DNA from: an uncultured Actinomycetes bacterium | Lineage (GTDB): Bacteria > Actinomycetota > Actinomycetes > Nanopelagicales > Nanopelagicaceae | Assembly (NCBI GenBank): GCA_903838295.1 | Contig: CAILXX010000006.1 | Span: forward strand, 1 to 64,000 | Direction of reading: 5' to 3' | DNA length: 64,000 nt | Shown: one piece after another, positions 6,918 to 29,277 of the stretch | Layout of the letters: the number at the start of each line of letters is the position of its first letter | Position numbering within the stretch: the first letter of the stretch is position 1 | The notes under the pieces: model-generated | Database searches by the model: none | What the model saw: only the letters and a program-made list of their open reading frames with translations | Told to the model about the DNA's origin: nothing | Position numbers and translations under genes: made by a program

Positions 6918-8429
6918 ATGTCATCACAAACCTTTCAAGCAGTCAATCCTGTTGATGGTCAGCCATTTGGTAAGGAATATTCTGAGGGTACCCACGGTGA
7001 AGTTACCGCTGCGATTTCTGCGCTATCCGCAAGTGCCACGGCATTTGCCGCACTTTCATTGTCAGATCGAGCAAATCTTCTAGAAAAGATCGCGAGTGAA
7101 TTGGATAGTGCTCGCGCGGATCTAGTAAAAATTGCGGAGTTAGAGACCGGGATCCCGCAAGCGCGACTTAACGGCGAAGTTACTCGCACGATGATTCAGT
7201 TACAACTTTTTGCGGCACAAGTGCGTACGGGTGCACACCTGAATGCAGTTATTGATTTAGCTGATGCTGACTATAAGCCGGCCCCACGCCCAGATATGCG
7301 CAAGATGAATCTTCCTATCGGTCCAGTTGCGGTATTTGGTGCATCCAATTTTCCCTTTGCATTTTCTACAATTGGAGGCGATAGCGCTTCTGCACTTGCT
7401 GCTGGCTGTCCTGTGATTGTTAAGGCCCATCCATCTCACCCAGGTGTTAGCGAACTGACATTCCAGGCGGTTCAAAGAGCGTTAAAGAGCTGTGGCATAT
7501 CGGGCGATGTTTTTGCAATAGTCCAAGGACGCAACCCAGAGATCACTCATTGGCTTGCTTTGGCGGAAGAAATCTGTGCCGTTGGCTTCACTGGATCTGC
7601 TGGCGTCGGAAAATTATTGGTAAAACTCTGTAACTCACGGCAAATCCCGATTCCTGTTTATGCAGAGATGGGAAGCCTTAACCCAGTTTTTGTCACTGCA
7701 GCAGCAATGACCGAGCGCGGAGTATCAATTGCGGAGATGCTTTTTGATTCAGCGGTTCTTGGCGCGGGTCAATTTTGCACAAAGCCGGGGTTGATATTTA
7801 TTGGCGCAGACCATGAACCATTTGTTGCGACCATACGGAGCAAAATGGAATCTGTGGGATCACAACCTCTGTTGAACAAGGGAATCTTGGATCGATACGT
7901 CGAATCTGTTAAGAGTTTGAACCAAATTGAGGGCGTAGAAAGCATCACTGGCAGTGTTTCGGTCGAAGGATTTATCGCACAACCCACCTTCTTTGTGATG
8001 GATTATGCCCACTTTAAAACACATCCTGAATTTGCAGAGGAACATTTTGGGCCAACCACGGTAATTGTTAAATGTAGCGAAGAGGATTTCGAGGAGATCA
8101 TTGCGCAGTCACAAGGACAATTGACGGCTACTTTGCATATTGGGGCGGCCGAGCCGAAGGCAGCTTTGCTTCAGAAGCTGGCAACGATTGCGGGCCGTGT
8201 GATTCTCAACGGCGCTCCAACTGGAGTATCTGTGACCGCTGCGCAAAGTCATGGTGGCCCATGGCCATCTTCTTCTACTCACACAACATCGGTCGGTACC
8301 GATGCGGTATTTAGATTCATGCGACCAGTAACATTTCAAGGCTTCGCTGATGATCTATTGCCGCCAGCGCTACAACAGGCAAATCCAGAGAAAATTGAAC
8401 GTGTGGTCAACGGCGTCCGGAGAATCTGA
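6918..8429 (+). CDS. NADP-type aldehyde dehydrogenase, 2-ketoglutarate semialdehyde DH-like
   Basis: A 503-residue aldehyde dehydrogenase with catalytic Cys287 (GAGQFCTKPG), general base Glu250 (AEMGSLNP) and the GSAGVGK cofactor loop. The N-terminal FQAVNPVDG and the AEMGSLNPVFV segment match the 2,5-dioxopentanoate (2-ketoglutarate semialdehyde) dehydrogenase branch. That enzyme makes 2-oxoglutarate at the end of non-phosphorylative pentose and hexuronate degradation. This agrees with the sugar-acid genes downstream. No clear Shine-Dalgarno was found. It is monocistronic, or co-transcribed with the next gene over a 152-base gap. Confidence 0.8.
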   Translation: MSSQTFQAVNPVDGQPFGKEYSEGTHGEVTAAISALSASATAFAALSLSDRANLLEKIASELDSARADLVKIAELETGIPQARLNGEVTRTMIQLQLFAAQVRTGAHLNAVIDLADADYKPAPRPDMRKMNLPIGPVAVFGASNFPFAFSTIGGDSASALAAGCPVIVKAHPSHPGVSELTFQAVQRALKSCGISGDVFAIVQGRNPEITHWLALAEEICAVGFTGSAGVGKLLVKLCNSRQIPIPVYAEMGSLNPVFVTAAAMTERGVSIAEMLFDSAVLGAGQFCTKPGLIFIGADHEPFVATIRSKMESVGSQPLLNKGILDRYVESVKSLNQIEGVESITGSVSVEGFIAQPTFFVMDYAHFKTHPEFAEEHFGPTTVIVKCSEEDFEEIIAQSQGQLTATLHIGAAEPKAALLQKLATIAGRVILNGAPTGVSVTAAQSHGGPWPSSSTHTTSVGTDAVFRFMRPVTFQGFADDLLPPALQQANPEKIERVVNGVRRI

Positions 8430-8581: not shown

Positions 8582-9496
8582 ATGTTGGCTGATTCACTCC
8601 TAGGTGGCTTTCCTTCCGAACTTATTCCGCCATCAAGCAAAGCCAAATTTCCTGATGGTGCCGATTTTCGAATCGAAATCCCATCAGTAGAAGGTCCAAA
8701 AGTTTTAGAGGCTGTCCTCAAGGAAGCTAAGCACTACGGAGTTACTGTAAACCGAGTTTCGCAAGGTAGTGGCGCGATGCTGCACACCGAGTCTGAATTA
8801 AAAGAGATGTCAAAGATTGCATCTGATGCTGGTGTAGAAATATCTCTCTTTATTGGCCCACGTGAAGAGTGGGGCATCGGGGCGATGTCACGAAGTAAAG
8901 AAGGCCCGGTGCTCAATGGTTCTATCCGCGGAATGCGACAGCTGCGATACGCAGTCGAAGATTCGCTTCGTGCGATCGAATGTGGAATCCGTGGCTTGTT
9001 AATTGCTGATCTTGGTTTGTTACAAGTTCTTAATGAAGCAAGAAGCCAAGGAAAAATTCCGATGGATGTGGTTTATAAAGTGTCGGTAATGAAGGCACCA
9101 TCAAATCCGGCAACTTTAAAAGTCATTGAAGGACTGGGCGGGGATACGATAAATCTTCCGACAGATCTAAATTTAAACGAACTTCATGAGATGCGTTCTG
9201 TCACAAAGCTTCCAATCGATCTTTATGTTGAAGCCCCAGATGGACTTGGTGGAGTTGTTCGTGGCAACGAATTGGCTGATCTTGTTGCCGCAGCATCGCC
9301 TTTGTATGTGAAATTTGGGCTACGCAATTCTCGGCCTTTGTACCCATCTGGGTTACATCTAGAAAATGATGCAATTATTATCGCGCGTGAAAAAGTACGT
9401 CGTGCCAGCATCGCGCTGGAGTGGATGAAGCGCGATTCTAGGAGCTTTGTTCAATCTACAGCCGGAGCAGAAGGGCTTGGAATTCCAAAACCGTGA
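8582..9496 (+). CDS. TIM-barrel protein resembling U32 family peptidases
   Basis: The 304-residue product shows alternating strand-helix units typical of a (beta/alpha)8 barrel: RIEIPS, VEISLFIG, GLLIADLGLLQ, VVYKVSVMKAPS, DTINLPTDL, PIDLYVEAP and LYVKFGLRNS. The GLLIADLG...VYKVS and LPIDLYVEAP segments recall U32 collagenase-like peptidases. The Cys/His features of proven U32 enzymes are not obvious, so proteolysis should not be assumed. Its own promoter and operator suggest induction by a metabolite, possibly together with the aldehyde dehydrogenase upstream. The ATG at 8582 has only a weak GGA ahead of it. Confidence 0.5.
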   Translation: MLADSLLGGFPSELIPPSSKAKFPDGADFRIEIPSVEGPKVLEAVLKEAKHYGVTVNRVSQGSGAMLHTESELKEMSKIASDAGVEISLFIGPREEWGIGAMSRSKEGPVLNGSIRGMRQLRYAVEDSLRAIECGIRGLLIADLGLLQVLNEARSQGKIPMDVVYKVSVMKAPSNPATLKVIEGLGGDTINLPTDLNLNELHEMRSVTKLPIDLYVEAPDGLGGVVRGNELADLVAAASPLYVKFGLRNSRPLYPSGLHLENDAIIIAREKVRRASIALEWMKRDSRSFVQSTAGAEGLGIPKP

Positions 9497-9561: not shown

Positions 9562-10530
9562 CTAGCGGGAAAAAGTAACTAGATTCTCGCCATTGCGACC
9601 ACGCTGAATTTTTTTGTATGACTCCAAGACTTCGATATGCCCCAACACGGGGTATACCAAGTATTTATAAGCGGGATCTGCCCAAACACCTAAACGCTCA
9701 TGCGCGATTTCGATTATCTCTAGCAATGTCAGCGGTTGATCTGCAGCCACAATGGTTTCTAATACAACCTTCTCTACCAAATCTGCATAATTTTTAGACT
9801 GATCCAAGAAATCCATAGCGGCCTGGCGTTGGTAGCGAGGGTAATGTGAAGTCAGAATCTCTGATGGGTTACGGCCTTTTAGCAGAGCAATTGTTGCTCG
9901 ATAAGCTTCAACAAATCGGTAGGTAGGCGGGAATGCATGCGTCCCATCTGCCAACAGGACACTCTCACCTAGAACCGCGTCACCAATGATGACGGCACGC
10001 GTGGTTTCGTCCCAAAATGATAAGTGGCCCCATGAATGTCCTGGCGTATGAACTATCTCAACAAATCGATCGCCTAAGTCAATTCTTTCACCACCAGTAA
10101 AACCGATATCAATCGAAGTTTCGCGGGCCACCGTGAAGATGAAGTCTTTAGACTCTTGTGATTCTGCAAAACCATGGTCTTTATCGAATTCGTTATAGCG
10201 ATCATCAATCATTTTTTGCAGGCTTACAATCATGTCGCGGTCTCGTTCGCCACAACATATGAGTGCGTTTGGCATGGTTTCTCTGACCACGACGTTGCCG
10301 CCGGTATGGTCATAATCCGAATGGGTATTAACCGCATAACGCACTGATTCCAGCGCGATCCCAGCCTCTTTCATATAAGGAATCAAGGTCTCACGGATGG
10401 AGTCTTCAAACCCGGTGTCGATCAGCATGGTTTGGGTCTTACCGACGATCAAATATAAAGCAACAAATCTTTCACCTATTGGACATTCGACCCTGTGGAT
10501 CCCAGGGAGTATTTCGCCAGATATTTTCAT
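9562..10530 (-). CDS. metallo-beta-lactamase-fold hydrolase with altered metal motif
   Basis: A 322-residue MBL-fold protein. The zinc motif reads THSDYDH (H70, D72, D74, H75), so the second His of the usual HxHxDH is Asp. Later ligands are present in HTPGHSWGH and VIIGDAVLG. The C-terminal about 80 residues form a helical DNA-binding-like or dimerisation tail, as in other glyoxalase-II-like MBLs. It is the last gene of a minus-strand operon and overlaps the GH105 gene by four bases. A thioesterase or lactone/ester hydrolase role is plausible beside CoA-transferase and crotonase genes, but this is inference. Confidence 0.7.
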   Translation of the reverse strand: MKISGEILPGIHRVECPIGERFVALYLIVGKTQTMLIDTGFEDSIRETLIPYMKEAGIALESVRYAVNTHSDYDHTGGNVVVRETMPNALICCGERDRDMIVSLQKMIDDRYNEFDKDHGFAESQESKDFIFTVARETSIDIGFTGGERIDLGDRFVEIVHTPGHSWGHLSFWDETTRAVIIGDAVLGESVLLADGTHAFPPTYRFVEAYRATIALLKGRNPSEILTSHYPRYQRQAAMDFLDQSKNYADLVEKVVLETIVAADQPLTLLEIIEIAHERLGVWADPAYKYLVYPVLGHIEVLESYKKIQRGRNGENLVTFSR

Positions 10531-11618
10531 AGAAGGTCCTCTGCATCACAAATTGCCATTGCCAATGGACCCTGACCCCACGGAACTAAGAATCCACGAG
10601 GAGTAAATTCGTAATGAGATTTACGTGTGGAGGCCATGACGGCTGCCGTAACATTTTTTAGGTATCCATTTTCGTCGGCATCATCAATTGCTCCGCCCAA
10701 GGCTGCTTGAAAAGCGGGACGTAATTGCGTATCACTTATAATTCCCAATTTAATTGCGCGCGCGAAGCCAGCTGCCATAAACGCCGCAGTCGACCCTTCT
10801 TCGCCAGAGCGTGGGCTATCTAGGACGCACCACCAACGACCATCTGGTCGTTGCAATTTAACCATTGCATGTATTTGTTTCAACACAGCGTCGGTTATGG
10901 CAGCTCTTGCGGGATGGTCGGTAGAAATATTTTTTAAAACATCTAGCATCCCCAACATCGACCAACCTTGGCCACGTCCCCATGCTGGTCCAAAAGTGCC
11001 GGGTTCGTCCCGTAAGAAGAAATGATCGAATATTCCATTGTCTCTTTGGAGCGCTGCAATGTAAGCAAGCGCCTGATTAACACCGACTTCGGTAAATTCG
11101 CTGTTATTGGTCGCTTTCCCTAGCGCTGTAAAGAAAGGTGGATCAAAATGTAGGCAGTCGACACAGGTGCCCGCAGGTGGATTTGCAAGTAGTTCGGCTT
11201 CGCGCGGTGGTAATTCTTCCCCGCCGTATGGTGGGATCAAACAAAGAGATTCCCAGGTATCAAGAATTCCGCGATCTACTGGACGCGACATTAAATATCT
11301 AGCCAGTGGAATTAACGCTGCTAGCAAGACCTCGTCGCCGGTCTCTTCTGCGACTTGCACCATTGCCATCCCAGGCGCCGTGCAGTCCAATCGTCGATAT
11401 GGCTCTGCTCGGGTAGCCCACGATCGCATCCACCCGTGTGCAAAAGCAAGGTATTGCGCATCTTTTAGCACCCGGCCAGATTCAAGAATTCCTTCAAAGC
11501 CAGTCGAATCGCCAAAATTCCAGGTGCTGTACGGCATCTTTAAAAGCGATTGCCCAACCTTTTCTAAGAGTTGAATTCGCTCTGCTCGTGGTGGAATTGC
11601 AGGGGCAACTGATTGCAT
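10527..11618 (-). CDS. GH105/GH88-like unsaturated uronyl hydrolase
   Basis: A 363-residue all-helical glycoside hydrolase of the six-hairpin type. The WGRGQGWSMLGML motif (213-223) matches the W-x-R-G-N-G-W signature of unsaturated rhamnogalacturonyl/glucuronyl hydrolases. Asp154 in CVDCLHFDPPFF sits where the catalytic Asp is expected. DGRWWCVLD...GEEGSTAAFMAAGFARA corresponds to the conserved C-terminal helices. No signal peptide is visible, so it would act on imported unsaturated disaccharides from pectin or related polymers. It abuts the crotonase gene and overlaps the MBL gene, indicating one operon. Confidence 0.75.
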   Translation of the reverse strand: MQSVAPAIPPRAERIQLLEKVGQSLLKMPYSTWNFGDSTGFEGILESGRVLKDAQYLAFAHGWMRSWATRAEPYRRLDCTAPGMAMVQVAEETGDEVLLAALIPLARYLMSRPVDRGILDTWESLCLIPPYGGEELPPREAELLANPPAGTCVDCLHFDPPFFTALGKATNNSEFTEVGVNQALAYIAALQRDNGIFDHFFLRDEPGTFGPAWGRGQGWSMLGMLDVLKNISTDHPARAAITDAVLKQIHAMVKLQRPDGRWWCVLDSPRSGEEGSTAAFMAAGFARAIKLGIISDTQLRPAFQAALGGAIDDADENGYLKNVTAAVMASTRKSHYEFTPRGFLVPWGQGPLAMAICDAEDLL

Positions 11619-12407
11619 TTAGCGACCTTTAAAGTTTGGTGGACGTTTTTCGGCGAATGCTTTCTGGCCTTCGGCAGCGTCTTCAGTTCTCATCAAATAA
11701 GCAAATGAATCATTTTCATAGAGCAAACCGATTTCTAGTGGAGTGCTCTGAGCCATACGCACCATGTGCTTCGTCATTTGCGCAGCGATGGGACCCTTGG
11801 TTGCGATTGATTCAGCAATTTGAATTGAGCGATCCATAACTTTGTCTGCGTCTATGATCTCTTGGACAAGTCCCATACGTAGGCTGGTCTGGGCATCGAC
11901 TGGTTCCCCGTGCAGCAAAAATAGGGAGGCGTTTCCGGAGCCAATTGTGTGGGTGAGCAATTGTGTCTGTCCTGAACCACCATGCCAACCCCAGCGAATT
12001 TCACCTGCTAAAAATTTTGTATTAGGCGCTGCAATTCTGATATCGGAAGAACATGCCATTTCTAATCCGCCGCCGACAACCCAACCATGAAGTGCTGCAA
12101 CAATTGGTTTGCGCATCAGCCACAGTGCTCGCGCATAATCCATATGTAGCGAGAATCGATTGCGGTATTCCCAGTTAGTTCCGTATTGATCCAGTTCTGT
12201 GATGTCACTTCCTGCACAGAAACCTTTTTCACCTTTGCCATAAAGAAGTACCGAGCGAATTTCTTGATCATTATTGATGCGATCTACATGTGAGTTCATT
12301 TCTGCATCCATGACGTGTGACATGGCGTTTATTTTCTCTGGACGATTAAGGATGATGTGGGCGACATGACCATGGACTTCTAGATCAACTGATCCGGGTG
12401 AGCTCAT
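11619..12407 (-). CDS. enoyl-CoA hydratase/isomerase (crotonase family)
   Basis: A 262-residue crotonase-fold protein with the CoA and oxyanion-hole segments GFCAGSDI and HGWVVGGGLEMA. The first catalytic Glu is kept (AGEIRWGW), but the position of the second (rat Glu164) is a hydrophobic residue in NASLFLLHG. It may therefore be an isomerase, lyase or hydrolase rather than a classical hydratase. The C-terminus EDAAEGQKAFAEKR is typical of the family. It lies two bases after the CoA-transferase gene and abuts GH105, so these enzymes probably act on the same acid as CoA thioesters. Confidence 0.8.
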   Translation of the reverse strand: MSSPGSVDLEVHGHVAHIILNRPEKINAMSHVMDAEMNSHVDRINNDQEIRSVLLYGKGEKGFCAGSDITELDQYGTNWEYRNRFSLHMDYARALWLMRKPIVAALHGWVVGGGLEMACSSDIRIAAPNTKFLAGEIRWGWHGGSGQTQLLTHTIGSGNASLFLLHGEPVDAQTSLRMGLVQEIIDADKVMDRSIQIAESIATKGPIAAQMTKHMVRMAQSTPLEIGLLYENDSFAYLMRTEDAAEGQKAFAEKRPPNFKGR

Positions 12408-12409
12408 AT

Positions 12410-13627
12410 TTACTCCTTTAGGGTACCCACGGCGTTTGCCGCGATTAAAGATTTAATTTTTTGATCGTCATATCCCAAAATATCTCGAAGGATTTCTTGA
12501 TTATGTTCACCTAGGGCCGGTGCGCCACGCTCTATAGAAGGTGGGGTTTCTGACATTCGTACGGGTGGACGCAGGGTTTTTGCGGTACCTCCGCGATACT
12601 GAGGCTGTTCTACGAAGTATTTCTGGTCAACGATATGTTGGTCTGACTGCAGATCTTCGTAGTTATATACGGGCCCACACCAGGCACCAGCTTTATCACA
12701 AATATCTATCCATTCTGCGGTCGTCTTGGTTACAAAGCGATTGCGGATGGTGCGATAAACCTCGTCTCTATATTTTTGTCCATCGTTGTAATGCTTAAGC
12801 GAACGTAGCCAATCGTCATCCAAGACTTCGCCCAAAATTGGTAGGGGGACCATGGCTAGAGTGAACCAAGAATCTTTAGTCTTATAGACACCATACGGTG
12901 CAGGGATCGATCCGTGCGCGCTTTTCTCTTCGGTACGTCGGGGCATCTGACCAGCATTTAAATAGGTAACTATTTCTTGTAACTGACAATCTAGAACGAC
13001 CGAGAGCATATCTATCTCTACATGTTGTCCGACTCCAGTTTGGTGCCTAGATTCCACCGCAGCCAAAATTCCAATCACGGCTTGATATCCGGTCATTACA
13101 TCTGCGCCCCACAATGCACTGGGGATGGGATCTTCACCAAGTGCGCCGACACTGAACATAGAACCGCTATAGCCCTGTATTACCAAGTCTTGCCCTGGTC
13201 GATCCCGATAAGGTCCCGTGGATCCATAACCAGATATTGAACAATAAATAATTCTAGGATTGATTGCTTTGAGTTGCTCGTAGCCGATACCTAATCGATC
13301 GGCAGTTCCGTGACGGAAATTTTGTAAAAAAACATCTGAATTTTTTATAAGGTCGTGTATAACAGCAAGACCTTCTGGATTCTTTAAATCGACTGATAAT
13401 GAACGTTTATTACGGTTGACAGCTAAAAACGTGGTCATTTCGCCATTGCTCTGCAAATCTTCAAAGCCGTGGGTGCGATTGAATTCACCTGACAGAGGCG
13501 GTTCAATTTTTATTACATCTGCGCCTAAGTCACCTAACCGTGTCCCGGCTAATGGACCCGCAAGCATTTGTGTTGCATCAAGAACTCTGAGACCTGCAAG
13601 TGCGCCTTTTCCCATGCGGTTAATCAT
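12410..13627 (-). CDS. family III CoA-transferase (CaiB/BaiF type)
   Basis: A 405-residue protein beginning (after a short leader) with LAGLRVLDATQMLAGP, the standard N-terminus of formyl-CoA/CaiB transferases. It also has GADVIKIEPP, NRNKRSLSVDLKNPEG, SISGYGSTGPY and the catalytic-Asp segment AVIGILAAVESR preceded by DVMTGYQ. It would move CoA from a donor thioester to a carboxylic acid. The start may be ATG 13627 or ATG 13615; the latter begins closer to the conserved region. It heads a tight run with the crotonase, GH105 and MBL genes, 70 bases after the enolase paralogue. Confidence 0.85.
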   Translation of the reverse strand: MINRMGKGALAGLRVLDATQMLAGPLAGTRLGDLGADVIKIEPPLSGEFNRTHGFEDLQSNGEMTTFLAVNRNKRSLSVDLKNPEGLAVIHDLIKNSDVFLQNFRHGTADRLGIGYEQLKAINPRIIYCSISGYGSTGPYRDRPGQDLVIQGYSGSMFSVGALGEDPIPSALWGADVMTGYQAVIGILAAVESRHQTGVGQHVEIDMLSVVLDCQLQEIVTYLNAGQMPRRTEEKSAHGSIPAPYGVYKTKDSWFTLAMVPLPILGEVLDDDWLRSLKHYNDGQKYRDEVYRTIRNRFVTKTTAEWIDICDKAGAWCGPVYNYEDLQSDQHIVDQKYFVEQPQYRGGTAKTLRPPVRMSETPPSIERGAPALGEHNQEILRDILGYDDQKIKSLIAANAVGTLKE

Positions 13628-13697: not shown

Positions 13698-14978
13698 TTA
13701 GGACTTAAGAGGTTGACCCTTATTAAATTCACAATCCTCTATCGCCTCCAGCTCTAGGAGCCGATTCCATTTAGAAGTTCTATCGGAACCATGGGTCGAA
13801 CCAACTTTGATCTGACCGGCGCCCCAACCCACGGCTAAATCAGCAAGCCAAGAATCTTCGGTTTCACCGCTACGAGCAGAGACGACGGTGCGCAAATTAC
13901 TTGCCTTAGCTTCTTTTAGAACCTGCAAAGTCGTGGTGAGTAAGCCATTCTGGTTTGGCTTAATAAGAATTGAATTACTTGAATTGTGCAGGATCCCTCG
14001 ATTTAATCGAACCAGGTTGGTTGTGTAGAGATCGTCACCGACAACCTGAAGGTTTGTGGGTATACCAGTCATGAATTGATTCCATGAATCCCAGTCATCT
14101 TCGGCAAAGGGATCTTCGATCGAAATAATTGGTTGATTCTTAACAAGGTTCTGCATGTAAGCGATGAAATCGTTCTTTGTGTGTACCTTATTTGCGTTGG
14201 GTAGGTGATATGAACCGTCGATGTACAGTTGGGTTGCCGCTACGTCAAGTGCGATTGAGACATCACGACCCACTTCTAGACCAGCCAACGTAATGCATGA
14301 TGATACAAAATCACACGCACTTTCGATTGTAGTAAAAGGAATAGCAAGTCCACCTTCATCGGCAATCAAATGTGTCGGAGCACCCAGCTTTGCGCCTTCG
14401 GTGGTTGCAATTTCTCGGATTGCGGATATCCATGAGATGGCTTCACGGAAAGATGTCGCGCCATGTGCCATCACCAGGACATCTTGAATATCCATAGTCT
14501 TCTTAGCATGAGCACCGCCAGAGAGAATATTGACCATAGGCATTGGTAATTGCAAAGGGCCAGTTGGTTGAAAGAAACGAGCCAAAGATTTGCCTTCGGT
14601 GTGCGCTTGACTTTTTGCGACCGCAATTGATACTGCCAGGGATGCGTTTGCCCCAATTGTATGAAAATCTTCGGACGGGTCGATTGTCTTAATCAATTGA
14701 TCAGCAGCAACGAGATTGGCTACATTTCCTACTAACTTTGGGGCAATCAGCTCATTAATATTGGCGCAGGCCTGGAATACAGATTTTCCATTGAAAATCT
14801 TCTCTGAATAAGGGGTCTTATGGTCCCGCAATTCTTTAGCTTCATGTAATCCAGTAGATGCACCTGATGGGATATGGGACGTATGAGAAGTTCCATCTGA
14901 TAAAAGAACGGTTGCAGCTACTGTGGGCCGCCCTCTGGAATCAAGTACTTGATAGCCAACTAATCGCGTGATGGTCAT
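13698..14978 (-). CDS. divergent enolase paralogue with altered catalytic residues
   Basis: A 426-residue protein clearly homologous to phosphopyruvate hydratase along its whole length. Kept features (yeast numbering in brackets): the SGASTG loop, His157 (159), Glu208 in DEGG (211), metal ligands Asp245, Glu288 and Asp315 (246/295/320), base Lys340 (345), Arg369 (374) and Lys391 (396). Changed: the catalytic His373 is Ala368 in VSARSGETED, Glu168 is Asp166 (IQDVLV), and the K-V-N after the base Lys is K-P-N. The fold and metal site should persist, but the substrate is probably not 2-phosphoglycerate. It overlaps the kinase gene upstream by four bases, implying coupled translation and a shared pathway. 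Confidence 0.85.
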   Translation of the reverse strand: MTITRLVGYQVLDSRGRPTVAATVLLSDGTSHTSHIPSGASTGLHEAKELRDHKTPYSEKIFNGKSVFQACANINELIAPKLVGNVANLVAADQLIKTIDPSEDFHTIGANASLAVSIAVAKSQAHTEGKSLARFFQPTGPLQLPMPMVNILSGGAHAKKTMDIQDVLVMAHGATSFREAISWISAIREIATTEGAKLGAPTHLIADEGGLAIPFTTIESACDFVSSCITLAGLEVGRDVSIALDVAATQLYIDGSYHLPNANKVHTKNDFIAYMQNLVKNQPIISIEDPFAEDDWDSWNQFMTGIPTNLQVVGDDLYTTNLVRLNRGILHNSSNSILIKPNQNGLLTTTLQVLKEAKASNLRTVVSARSGETEDSWLADLAVGWGAGQIKVGSTHGSDRTSKWNRLLELEAIEDCEFNKGQPLKS

Positions 14979-15961
14979 GGGAACAACTCCAAGATATCTA
15001 CTTTTTCACTAGAAAGTGCCTCGATAGTAAGTGTACGCAATAATTCCTGACCCGCGGGCTCCAAATAATTAACAGGTGAGACACCATCGACCCTGGCCAA
15101 AGCAACTAAAGCAGCGTGATTGGCAAAATTGTGAGCGACAGGGATCAGCGAATTTTTCTGGTAACCATCTACAAATTTTAAGGCTGTCTCTTTCAGAAGG
15201 CTTTTTTGATCCGGGGAGGTTGCTCGGATATTTTTACAGATCAGATGAGCAAGTAAGAAACCTAAATCGAAGACTGGATTGCCAACATGGATTACTTCAA
15301 AGTCCAGGACAATAGGCGCCATATCATTTGCAACCATGACATTTTTTGGAGAGTAATCGCCATGAACAATTGTCAATTTTTCTTTGGTTATCTGATCCAT
15401 CATTGACGATATCTTGGAAGCAAGCTTTGGGTTCTTATCTCGAAGCACACCATAAAAAGGTTGCACTCGCAATTGTCCAAATAAAATATCTTCCTGGAAT
15501 TGGTCTTGTATTGCTTGGTTATTGAATCCAAAGTTGTGCCAAGCAGCCAGGATCGCTCCTAATTGATAACCAGTTGTTGGGTCGATATTTCCTTCGAGTA
15601 ATTCACTCTTCCACACCTTAAAATCGCGAGGGCAGCGGGTCATTGTCAGCGTGAATTCAATTGGGTCAACATCAACAAGTACTGGAATATTTTTTGGAGT
15701 GACTGAATGCAAAATCTTGATGGCCCGAGCTTCTGTGATTGCCCGTTTTTGATCGGCCAACCACTCAATTTTTGTTTTGAGTTGGGGCAGCGCTTGCTTG
15801 AGTACTAAATCTGAATCAGATGTGCGAATTCCTAAAACAACGTTAGAGACTCCGCCGGTCAGGATTTCTACTTCCACATCCCCAGAAATAATTCCCCTGT
15901 CGCGAAGGTATGGCACCACGGTGGTTTCATCTAAGAGGTCAGCAGAATTGGAAGTTGTCAT
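14975..15961 (-). CDS. APH/MtnK-like small-molecule kinase
   Basis: A 328-residue kinase of the aminoglycoside phosphotransferase/choline kinase fold. The N-lobe has EILTGGVSNVVLGI and LVLKQALPQLK, where KQALP is reminiscent of 5-methylthioribose kinase (MtnK). The catalytic loop is IVHGDYSPKNVMV and the metal-binding DFE follows in IVLDFEVIHVGNPVFDL. A Shine-Dalgarno (GAGGAG) precedes ATG 15961, which lies 24 bases after the tRNA-Gly gene. Its stop overlaps the enolase paralogue's start. It probably phosphorylates the compound that the enolase-like enzyme then acts on. The substrate is unknown. Confidence 0.75.
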   Translation of the reverse strand: MTTSNSADLLDETTVVPYLRDRGIISGDVEVEILTGGVSNVVLGIRTSDSDLVLKQALPQLKTKIEWLADQKRAITEARAIKILHSVTPKNIPVLVDVDPIEFTLTMTRCPRDFKVWKSELLEGNIDPTTGYQLGAILAAWHNFGFNNQAIQDQFQEDILFGQLRVQPFYGVLRDKNPKLASKISSMMDQITKEKLTIVHGDYSPKNVMVANDMAPIVLDFEVIHVGNPVFDLGFLLAHLICKNIRATSPDQKSLLKETALKFVDGYQKNSLIPVAHNFANHAALVALARVDGVSPVNYLEPAGQELLRTLTIEALSSEKVDILELFP

Positions 15962-21948: not shown

Positions 21949-22806
21949 ATGAAGTTACTGCGTATTGGAGAAGCTGGGCAAGAAAAACCAGCAGCGCTTA
22001 TTAATGAAACTCATTATGTGGATCTCTCTGATGTTGTAACAGATTTTGACGAATCGTTTTTCGGATCTGGAAAAATTGCTGAACTTCCAGCGATCATTAG
22101 TGCAAAAGTTGGGCGTGGCGAAAAACATCTTTTAGCGGAGAAGCGAATTGGATCTCCCATTGCGCGTCCACATCAAATTTTGTGTGTTGGCCTGAATTAC
22201 AGCGATCATGCTGCCGAAACCGGGCAACCGGTTCCAACCGAACCAATTATTTTTAATAAGTCCCCCAATACTTTAATTGGACCAAATGATGATGTTCTCA
22301 TCCCAAAAAATTCTATGAAGACAGATTGGGAGGTAGAACTTGCGATCGTCATTGGAAAGAAAGCCCTCTATCTCAAGGACGAAGCCGCCGCCGCCGATGC
22401 GATCGCCGGCTATACCTTGGTTAACGATGTATCCGAACGTGAATGGCAGGTTGAACGCGGCGGCCAATGGGTGAAAGGAAAGTCCGCGCCAACATTTAAT
22501 CCAGCAGGTCCCTACCTGGTGACTGCGGATGAGATACCTAATGTTTTGAATCTCAAAATGAAACTAGATATTGATGGCGTCAGTAAGCAGAATGGTTCGA
22601 CCGCAACTATGTTATTTAGCCCTACCTTTGTCGTGCACTATGTTTCCCAATTCATGCAATTAGAGCCTGGCGATCTTATTAATACCGGCACTCCTCCTGG
22701 GGTTGGAATGGGTAGCAAGCCTCCTACGTATCTCAAGGGTGGAGAGACCATGACGCTTTCAATCGAGCACCTAGGAACCCAGATCCAACACGTCCGCAAG
22801 TACTAG
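21949..22806 (+). CDS. fumarylacetoacetate hydrolase family enzyme
   Basis: A 285-residue FAH-domain protein. LCVGLNYSDHAAETG begins the catalytic domain near residue 78. Metal-binding acids are present in KTDWEVELAIVIGK and VNDVSEREWQ, and the GDLINTGTPPGVG loop is near 242-254. Closest family themes are 2,4-diketo-3-deoxy-L-fuconate/rhamnonate hydrolases, which yield pyruvate and lactate. Its divergent arrangement with two SDRs fits a non-phosphorylative deoxysugar pathway, though lactonase and dehydratase genes are not in the window. A clear Shine-Dalgarno (AGAAGGGG) precedes ATG 21949. Confidence 0.8.
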   Translation: MKLLRIGEAGQEKPAALINETHYVDLSDVVTDFDESFFGSGKIAELPAIISAKVGRGEKHLLAEKRIGSPIARPHQILCVGLNYSDHAAETGQPVPTEPIIFNKSPNTLIGPNDDVLIPKNSMKTDWEVELAIVIGKKALYLKDEAAAADAIAGYTLVNDVSEREWQVERGGQWVKGKSAPTFNPAGPYLVTADEIPNVLNLKMKLDIDGVSKQNGSTATMLFSPTFVVHYVSQFMQLEPGDLINTGTPPGVGMGSKPPTYLKGGETMTLSIEHLGTQIQHVRKY

Positions 22807-27919: not shown

Positions 27920-28834
27920 TTATGCAAATTCCTCAATAATATTTATTGGATCTTCACCGCGGGCAATTCGCTGTAATTGTTCTTCGATCAGCTTGCGGCC
28001 CCGTTTTTCAAAGGCTTCGGAATCTCCACCTACGTGTGGTGTAATTAAACAATTCTTAGCAGACCACAGTGGATGGTCTTTTGGTAGTGGTTCTGGATCG
28101 GTGACATCAAGGCCCGCATAGATTCGCCCGGTATTCAACTCCGTTATCAGGGCATTTGTGTCAATGACCGCTCCCCGCGCAACATTGATAAGGACAGAAC
28201 CATCTTTCATCCGCGACAGGCGTTCGGCATTTATCAAGTGTCTGCTCTCGGTATTGAGTGGAAGGATCAAAAAGAGAAAGTCAAAAGTTGGTAAATACTC
28301 GTCGAGTTCTGTGATTTTAAGTGAACGGTTCATGCCAGAGCGTGAAAAAGTTGTGATTTCAACATCATATGGTCGTAGGTAGGAAACTAAGGTTTCTCCG
28401 ATTGAACCTGCACCAATGATTCCGATTTTGCTATCGTTGAGAGATCCCATCCGTTGGTGAGTCCATGCCCCGTGTGCTTGCGCGCGTACAAATTCTGGAA
28501 TTCCTCTGCGCAGAGCGATTGCCATACCAACAGCAAGTTCTGCTGTTGATGCATTATGTACCCCACGTGCATTGCACAAAGTCATGCCAGATCGAATGAA
28601 TGGTTTGACGTCGTCGTATCCGGCATTCGGTGTCTGGACCAAGCGCAGATTAGACATTCGATTTATGGGCTCTAGAAATTCAACGCCGGTCATGTAGGGC
28701 GGAACATAAATTGTGATTTGTGACAGGTCAGAACTATCTAATGGAAAATTTGCAGGAGATAACCTTTGAATTCCTTCGGGGACTTTTAAGTCGGGCCATT
28801 GGCTCCAAACGGAATCTGTATATTTAGCCATCAT
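27920..28834 (-). CDS. D-2-hydroxyacid dehydrogenase
   Basis: A 304-residue NAD-dependent D-isomer 2-hydroxyacid dehydrogenase. The cofactor motif is GIIGAGSIGETL (about 140-151). The catalytic Arg is in NVARGAVIDTNAL, the Glu in DVTDPEPLP and the His in TPHVGGDS. The chosen start (ATG 28834) gives an ATGA overlap with the cytosine deaminase stop. It would interconvert a 2-keto acid and a D-2-hydroxyacid; the substrate (glyoxylate, hydroxypyruvate or other) is not evident. Confidence 0.85.
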   Translation of the reverse strand: MMAKYTDSVWSQWPDLKVPEGIQRLSPANFPLDSSDLSQITIYVPPYMTGVEFLEPINRMSNLRLVQTPNAGYDDVKPFIRSGMTLCNARGVHNASTAELAVGMAIALRRGIPEFVRAQAHGAWTHQRMGSLNDSKIGIIGAGSIGETLVSYLRPYDVEITTFSRSGMNRSLKITELDEYLPTFDFLFLILPLNTESRHLINAERLSRMKDGSVLINVARGAVIDTNALITELNTGRIYAGLDVTDPEPLPKDHPLWSAKNCLITPHVGGDSEAFEKRGRKLIEEQLQRIARGEDPINIIEEFA

Positions 28835-29277
28835 TCTTCGCCAATATCCTCGTTCCAAACTTCTGGCTTTTCAGAGATGAATTTAGCCATCAAATCTTTG
28901 CACGCTTGTGAGTTGAGGTTGATGACTTCGACGCCATGGGATCGAAGTAAATCTTCTGCCCCCATAAATGTTTCGTTTTCCCCCAGGACCACTCGAGGAA
29001 TTCCATAAAGAAGAATTGCACCGCTACACATATGGCATGGTGACAGAGTGGTGTACATGGTCGCTTTACGATAAACGCTCGCGGGCAACCGACCAATATT
29101 CTCCAAACAGTCAGTTTCTCCGTGACGAATCGCGCTTGCCTGCTGTACCCGCTTGTTAAAGCCGACACCCAATACTTTGCCATCAACAACGAGTGCCCCG
29201 CCGATGGGGACTCCACCTTGTGCCCCGCCTTCGCGAGCGGCGGCAATTGCGAATTCTAGAAATCCTTGATCATCCAT
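28831..29277 (-). CDS. yeast-type cytosine deaminase
   Basis: A 148-residue zinc deaminase of the small CDA fold. HGE (H52, E54) and PCHMC (C81, C84) bind zinc and supply the proton shuttle. Long stretches match fungal Fcy1 cytosine deaminase: EGGVPIGG-like, RHGETDCLENIGRL, TTLSPC, YGIPRVVLGEN and a C-terminal W-x-EDIGE. It should convert cytosine to uracil, releasing ammonia. ATG 29277 is preceded by a strong Shine-Dalgarno (AAAGGGGGAG). It is divergent from an NCS1 nucleobase carrier, forming an uptake-plus-salvage pair. Confidence 0.88.
   Translation of the reverse strand: MDDQGFLEFAIAAAREGGAQGGVPIGGALVVDGKVLGVGFNKRVQQASAIRHGETDCLENIGRLPASVYRKATMYTTLSPCHMCSGAILLYGIPRVVLGENETFMGAEDLLRSHGVEVINLNSQACKDLMAKFISEKPEVWNEDIGEE

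Follow-up and report, generated by a model that had tools for sequence, protein, structure and literature searches.

Enolase is usually treated as a family with a single function. In the enzyme of M. tuberculosis, Glu163 and Glu204 (equivalent to Glu168 and Glu211) take part in catalysis, whatever the state the ligand is touched by Lys335, His154 and Arg364 (PMC10619443), while His373 of the yeast enzyme was addressed by a mutagenesis study (Brewer 1997, as cited in PMC5237310). Glycerate kinases fall into three unrelated classes, none of which is described as APH-like (PMC2063504). No description of a kinase-enolase pair was found in the open-access PMC literature. Here, such a pair is reported from an uncultured actinobacterium, in which it probably performs an unrecognised step in the breakdown of small sugar-derived acids.

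The window, that is the whole stretch of 64,000 nucleotides that was analysed, carries on its minus strand the genes of a small-molecule kinase (KIN) and of an enolase paralogue (ENO) (Table 1). The overlap of four bases noticed in the first-pass annotation was found as ATGA, in which the TGA stop codon of KIN meets the ATG of ENO, and both reading frames were recovered at the coordinates listed. The host genome (1.46 Mb, 23 contigs, 99% complete) contains exactly two enolase matches, namely ENO (243.6 bits) and a canonical enolase on contig 4 (448.8 bits), which are 42% identical; the search for a canonical eno that had been proposed was therefore positive, and the lack of a second enolase, which the first-pass annotation had named as part of a possible refutation, does not apply. 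The surroundings of the pair are mixed, with an acetyl xylan esterase upstream and a CoA-transferase III, a crotonase, a GH88 and an MBL-fold protein downstream. Immediately downstream of ENO, and oriented like it, come the genes of the class III CoA-transferase, crotonase and GH88 (10527-13627), a gene order that the other loci did not show beside the pair.

Table 1. Features of the window discussed in the text, with their coordinates
Feature	Position	Strand	Remarks
KIN, APH/MtnK-fold small-molecule kinase	14975..15961	-	328 aa; intact HGD-SPKN and DFE motifs
ENO, enolase paralogue	13698..14978	-	426 aa; D166/A368 at yeast Glu168/His373
TIM-barrel protein, weak Peptidase_U32	8582..9496	+	near KIN-ENO in many loci of the window's family
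Aldehyde dehydrogenase, probably 2,5-dioxovalerate (KGSA) type	6918..8429	+	clusters with KIN-ENO neighbours; type by inspection
FAH-family protein	21949..22806	+	member L064 of its cluster resembles 2,4-didehydro-3-deoxy-L-rhamnonate hydrolase, below cutoff
D-2-hydroxyacid dehydrogenase	27920..28858	-	profile 153 bits, below cutoff 400

ENO matches the Pfam domains Enolase_N and Enolase_C above cutoff and reaches 395.8 bits with TIGR01060 eno, for which the cutoff is 300. Alignment with solved enolases and relatives confirmed all the catalytic residues that had been claimed for it. The three metal ligands D245, E288 and D315 (yeast Asp246, Glu295 and Asp320) are aligned and invariant, and the base K340 (yeast Lys345), the acid E208 (yeast Glu211) and K391 (yeast K396) are kept, as are H157, Q165 and R369-S370 (yeast H159, Q167 and R374-S375). 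On the contrary, D166 replaces yeast Glu168 and A368 replaces His373. The proline that had also been pointed out after Lys340 is present but it is not diagnostic, since the ordinary enolase PDB 3qn3 (IKPNQIGT) has one too; within the kinase-linked enolase family, the residue that follows the base Lys varies between P, A, V, L and M. Given the roles described for the corresponding residues (PMC10619443), the retained residues and metal ligands imply a 2-phospho-carboxylate as the putative ligand of ENO.

The pair is widespread. Among the best 80 relatives of the kinase, 66 are followed immediately, on the same strand, by an ENO-type enolase gene at a distance of about -6 to 220 nt, while 3 loci are cut by contig ends and 11 have no enolase as next gene. 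Of the 91 genomes searched within the window's taxonomic family, 36 have a relative of KIN; relatives also occur, among the matches listed, in Actinomycetota, Acidobacteriota, Chloroflexota, Planctomycetota, Bacteroidota, Bacillota, Armatimonadota, Sumerlaeota and an archaeal MAG. The phylum survey was a scan of contigs with one genome per species that gives a lower bound, and by this count the pair is present in at least seven bacterial phyla and one archaeal MAG. Organism labels of MAGs are fallible; for instance, a contig of the window's actinobacterial group carries the label Bifidobacterium.

At the positions of Glu168 and His373, the 130 distinct enolases that were compared have Asp/Ala (82), Asp/Gly (1), Asp/Val (1) or Glu/His (46), with no mixed state among them. 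The family members thus have Asp in 84/84 and Ala in 82/84 cases, whereas Glu and His are found together in all 46 other enolases, and the family-wide changes N153S, G206A, F211L, E250Q and T392V are linked to this signature. A scattering of the substitutions among ordinary enolases, which the first-pass annotation had considered fatal to its proposal, was not observed: a maximum-likelihood tree built from 106 sequences places the Asp/Ala group on one side of a branch with an SH-aLRT of 100. When 26 diagnostic columns were removed, the Ala group needed two changes instead of one, with a single origin still possible; the long-branched sequence L043 may be the cause of the second change. As the pair reappears with both substitutions in different phyla, their association is far beyond chance. 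At least two enolases were found in 38 of 40 genomes with the pair, both exceptions being MAGs. In other actinobacteria (L047, L048 and L049), second enolases that have Glu and His and no linked kinase form a separate long branch.

KIN matches the Pfam family APH with 51.8 bits (cutoff 23.2), and its catalytic motifs are invariant in 15 aligned relatives. Its AlphaFold model (pLDDT 93) finds its best PDB folds in MtnK and PsiK at 16-19% identity, with the MtnK structure 2pyw as best solved structural neighbour (TM 0.83), which places it in the APH-like kinase fold. The earlier description as an MtnK/APH-like kinase is thus appropriate for fold and superfamily but not for an identity as MtnK, the NCBIfam profile MTRK scoring 57.9 bits, far under its cutoff of 275. 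Only APH-type families were matched by KIN, from which the glycerate kinase domains PF02595 (class I) and PF13660 (class II) are absent. Part of the kinase family may have another role. As a separate observation, the kinase homologues of L128, L131, L139, L150, L153 and L114 have no enolase beside them, and those of L128 and L137 are divergent from genes that by eye resemble IspE and SpoVG.

The inspection of neighbours suggested by the first-pass annotation revealed that pairing is strongly conserved and that 2-hydroxy-acid and sugar-acid genes lie nearby in many phyla. Many of the neighbour names given here are profile matches below curated cutoffs or readings of the sequence by eye, ORF calls in high-GC loci are mechanical, and the two locus sets overlap for some genomes, so that the counts of neighbours lack independence. 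Within the window's taxonomic family, the pair usually lies in an operon of SGL lactonase, the U32-like barrel, an SDR, KIN and ENO, and KDG kinase, KDPG aldolase, IlvD/Edd, FAH and aldehyde dehydrogenase genes are found near it. A second form consists of MR/MLE, KIN and ENO, followed in G016 directly downstream by a class I glycerate kinase, and a third one of GlcD, GlcF, KIN and RraA-like, ENO. The family of the TIM-barrel protein accompanies the pair in 36 loci from the window's group, with some genomes counted twice, and has a mean column identity of 75% over 12 members (e.g. L064:11266-12198 and L044:4034-4972). It has no family in NCBIfam and no PDB relative, and the attempt to deduce its function from the fold was abandoned, the matches being unspecific TIM barrels.

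In other phyla, cluster mates of the window's D-2-hydroxyacid dehydrogenase are found in one operon with KIN-ENO. A D-2-hydroxyacid dehydrogenase shares one operon with the pair in Streptomyces, Mycobacterium, Nocardia and Microbacterium, in which FAH and aromatic-oxygenase genes are often close by. Near the pair of L115 and L122, a MarR-like regulator and a polysaccharide-deacetylase-like gene were observed in both Streptomyces and Mycobacterium. Chloroflexota combine the pair with a D-2-hydroxyacid dehydrogenase, a DeoC-family aldolase and an FGGY kinase. Three arrangements exist in Negativicutes: one with tartronate semialdehyde reductase (above cutoff), HpcH aldolase, RraA, a dehydrogenase and an MFS transporter, one with a LarAH10 2-hydroxyacid racemase and an LctP permease (both above cutoff), and one with solely a methyltransferase-like gene, a regulator and a transporter beside the pair. 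In 5/5 Negativicutes genomes (L220-L224, L133, L154), the pair is preceded by an MtaA/CmuA-family methyltransferase-like gene and a regulator of the PucR type, and the corrinoid link of the former was unexpected. Finally, in many genomes the pair stands without recurrent neighbours, which is expected if its product is a central metabolite and favours phosphoenolpyruvate (PEP). For a product larger than PEP, a conserved follow-up enzyme would be expected next door; no dedicated one was conserved beside the pair in the loci compared, which counts against such a product.

KIN and ENO can be read as a module that, driven by ATP, converts a small 2,3-dihydroxy acid of sugar-acid catabolism in two steps, with putative reactions and substrate, a reading that we hold with as much belief as doubt. 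In the first step, KIN would phosphorylate the 2-hydroxyl of the acid to give a 2-phospho-2,3-dihydroxy acid. ENO would then bind the carboxylate via two Mg2+ and the 2-phosphate via the retained Arg-Ser, Lys340 would abstract the C2 proton and the 3-hydroxyl would leave, yielding PEP or a C3-substituted homologue. Loss of His373 and shortening of Glu168 to Asp would remodel the pocket around the C3 leaving group, and because the pocket appears reshaped at this place, ENO probably acts on a substrate other than glycolytic D-2-phosphoglycerate. 2-Hydroxy acids are common to all contexts, and the leading candidates are L-glycerate, a tetronate or another acid of four or more carbons, such as an aldonate, ahead of D-glycerate. 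An acid larger than glycerate is also favoured by the preference of LarAH10 from Megasphaera, which works best on gluconate and mannonate, which it epimerises, and is nearly inactive on glycerate (PMC11770544).

The evidence on D-glycerate is mixed. KIN might be a D-glycerate 2-kinase that has escaped recognition, and ENO might be an enolase dedicated to converting ordinary 2-phosphoglycerate into PEP, its residue changes being tolerated, which we consider possible although unlikely. Tartronate semialdehyde reductase and hydroxypyruvate/glyoxylate-reductase-like dehydrogenases, which form D-glycerate, are found in the same operons, and PEP requires no further enzyme. Moreover, among the 91 genomes of the window's family, 4 have the pair and a class I glycerate kinase, 32 the pair only, 21 the kinase only and 34 neither. 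This anti-correlation (Fisher p 0.007 for an overlap of 4 between 36 and 25, kinship being ignored) points back to glycerate; the exclusion holds in genera g10, g16 and g17 and is absent in the window's genus. Related genomes have a class I glycerate kinase beside similar FAH, SDR, KDPG aldolase and dehydrogenase genes, while class II glycerate kinase is absent from the listed genomes of the family. G058, which has the pair, carries a class I glycerate kinase fragment with an in-frame stop (L209:1280-1426), and its genus mate G088 has a full-length class I glycerate kinase and no pair. Against D-glycerate stand the altered catalysts together with the canonical enolase alongside, as Glu168 and His373 are present in every sampled canonical enolase and never in the ENO family. 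It is also spoken against by known D-glycerate kinases, which co-occur with the pair in most genomes outside the window's family (32 of 37 pair genomes sampled across phyla and 5/5 Negativicutes), and by the one directly downstream of ENO in G016.

Alternatively, KIN and ENO could replace a sugar-acid dehydratase, leading from an aldonate or aldarate to a 2-keto-3-deoxy acid via an enol phosphate. The lactonase, KDG kinase, KDPG aldolase and HpcH aldolase that adjoin the pair would fit such a route, and so would the gluconate/mannonate epimerisation by the characterised LarAH10 (PMC11770544). However, pair genomes contain IlvD/Edd and MR/MLE-type enzymes of the ordinary kind (as many as 23 MR/MLE), in G039 with IlvD/Edd about 13 kb from the kinase, so that there is no clear gap to fill and the argument from a missing dehydratase is weakened. 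As no conserved phosphatase or kinase dedicated to the enol phosphate was found either, this replacement seems quite improbable.

It is very improbable that ENO is no dehydratase at all and uses enolate chemistry to epimerise a 2-phospho-hydroxyacid (e.g. L- to D-2-phosphoglycerate) or to break a C-C bond. Racemisation is a frequent reaction in the enolase superfamily at large, the pair has racemase and hydroxyacid dehydrogenase genes among its neighbours, and the changed residues are those of the leaving group, with proton abstraction and metal ligands retained; nevertheless, Glu208, which serves as general acid for the hydroxyl that leaves, is invariant. Three further candidates were rejected: methionine salvage with methylthioribose, for which the MTRK score lies far under cutoff and nothing speaks in support, a phosphonate (CPEP synthase) link, for which no phosphonate genes were recognised in the neighbour lists and no paper in the open-access PMC literature was found, and a sulfolactate-type substrate with sulfite leaving, for which the residue changes would remove, not add, positive charge near C3.

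The two-step module on a 2,3-dihydroxy acid would amount to an undescribed catabolic route, with a hydroxyacid 2-kinase of the APH type that forms a 2-phospho acid different from D-2-phosphoglycerate and a non-glycolytic, isofunctional family of the enolase subgroup that turns it into PEP or a homologue; our confidence in it is evenly balanced. If true, this is a new step in hydroxyacid metabolism that occurs in at least seven bacterial phyla and is now scored as glycolytic enolase. NCBIfam scores ENO as phosphopyruvate hydratase above cutoff, so that the family is hidden by annotation, and its annotation as ordinary enolase is probably wrong in many genomes, including those of freshwater actinobacteria. 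As a sister family with a fixed exchange of two catalytic residues, ENO represents a natural experiment on the roles of His373 and Glu168.

Among known systems, enolase (EC 4.2.1.11, TIGR01060) shares with ENO the fold, both domains, the metal ligands and the equivalents of Lys345, Lys396, Glu211, His159 and Arg374-Ser375, but ENO differs from it by the changes of Glu168 to Asp and His373 to Ala, by further family-wide changes, by its linkage to a kinase and by its separate branch. MtnK, which has the APH fold in common with KIN, is its best solved structural neighbour and best profile match; yet identity is 16-19%, the MTRK equivalog profile stays below cutoff and no methionine-salvage genes were recognised among the neighbours examined. 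With glycerate kinases of classes I-III, KIN may have in common the phosphorylation of a 2-hydroxy acid at C2. Finally, KIN has a weak profile match to ACAD11, and in ACAD10/ACAD11, which combine a 4-hydroxyacyl-CoA kinase with an elimination, as far as described in PMC11342911, a kinase domain activates a hydroxyl for the next step as is proposed for KIN, whereas the second enzyme, the CoA substrate and the leaving group differ from those of KIN-ENO.
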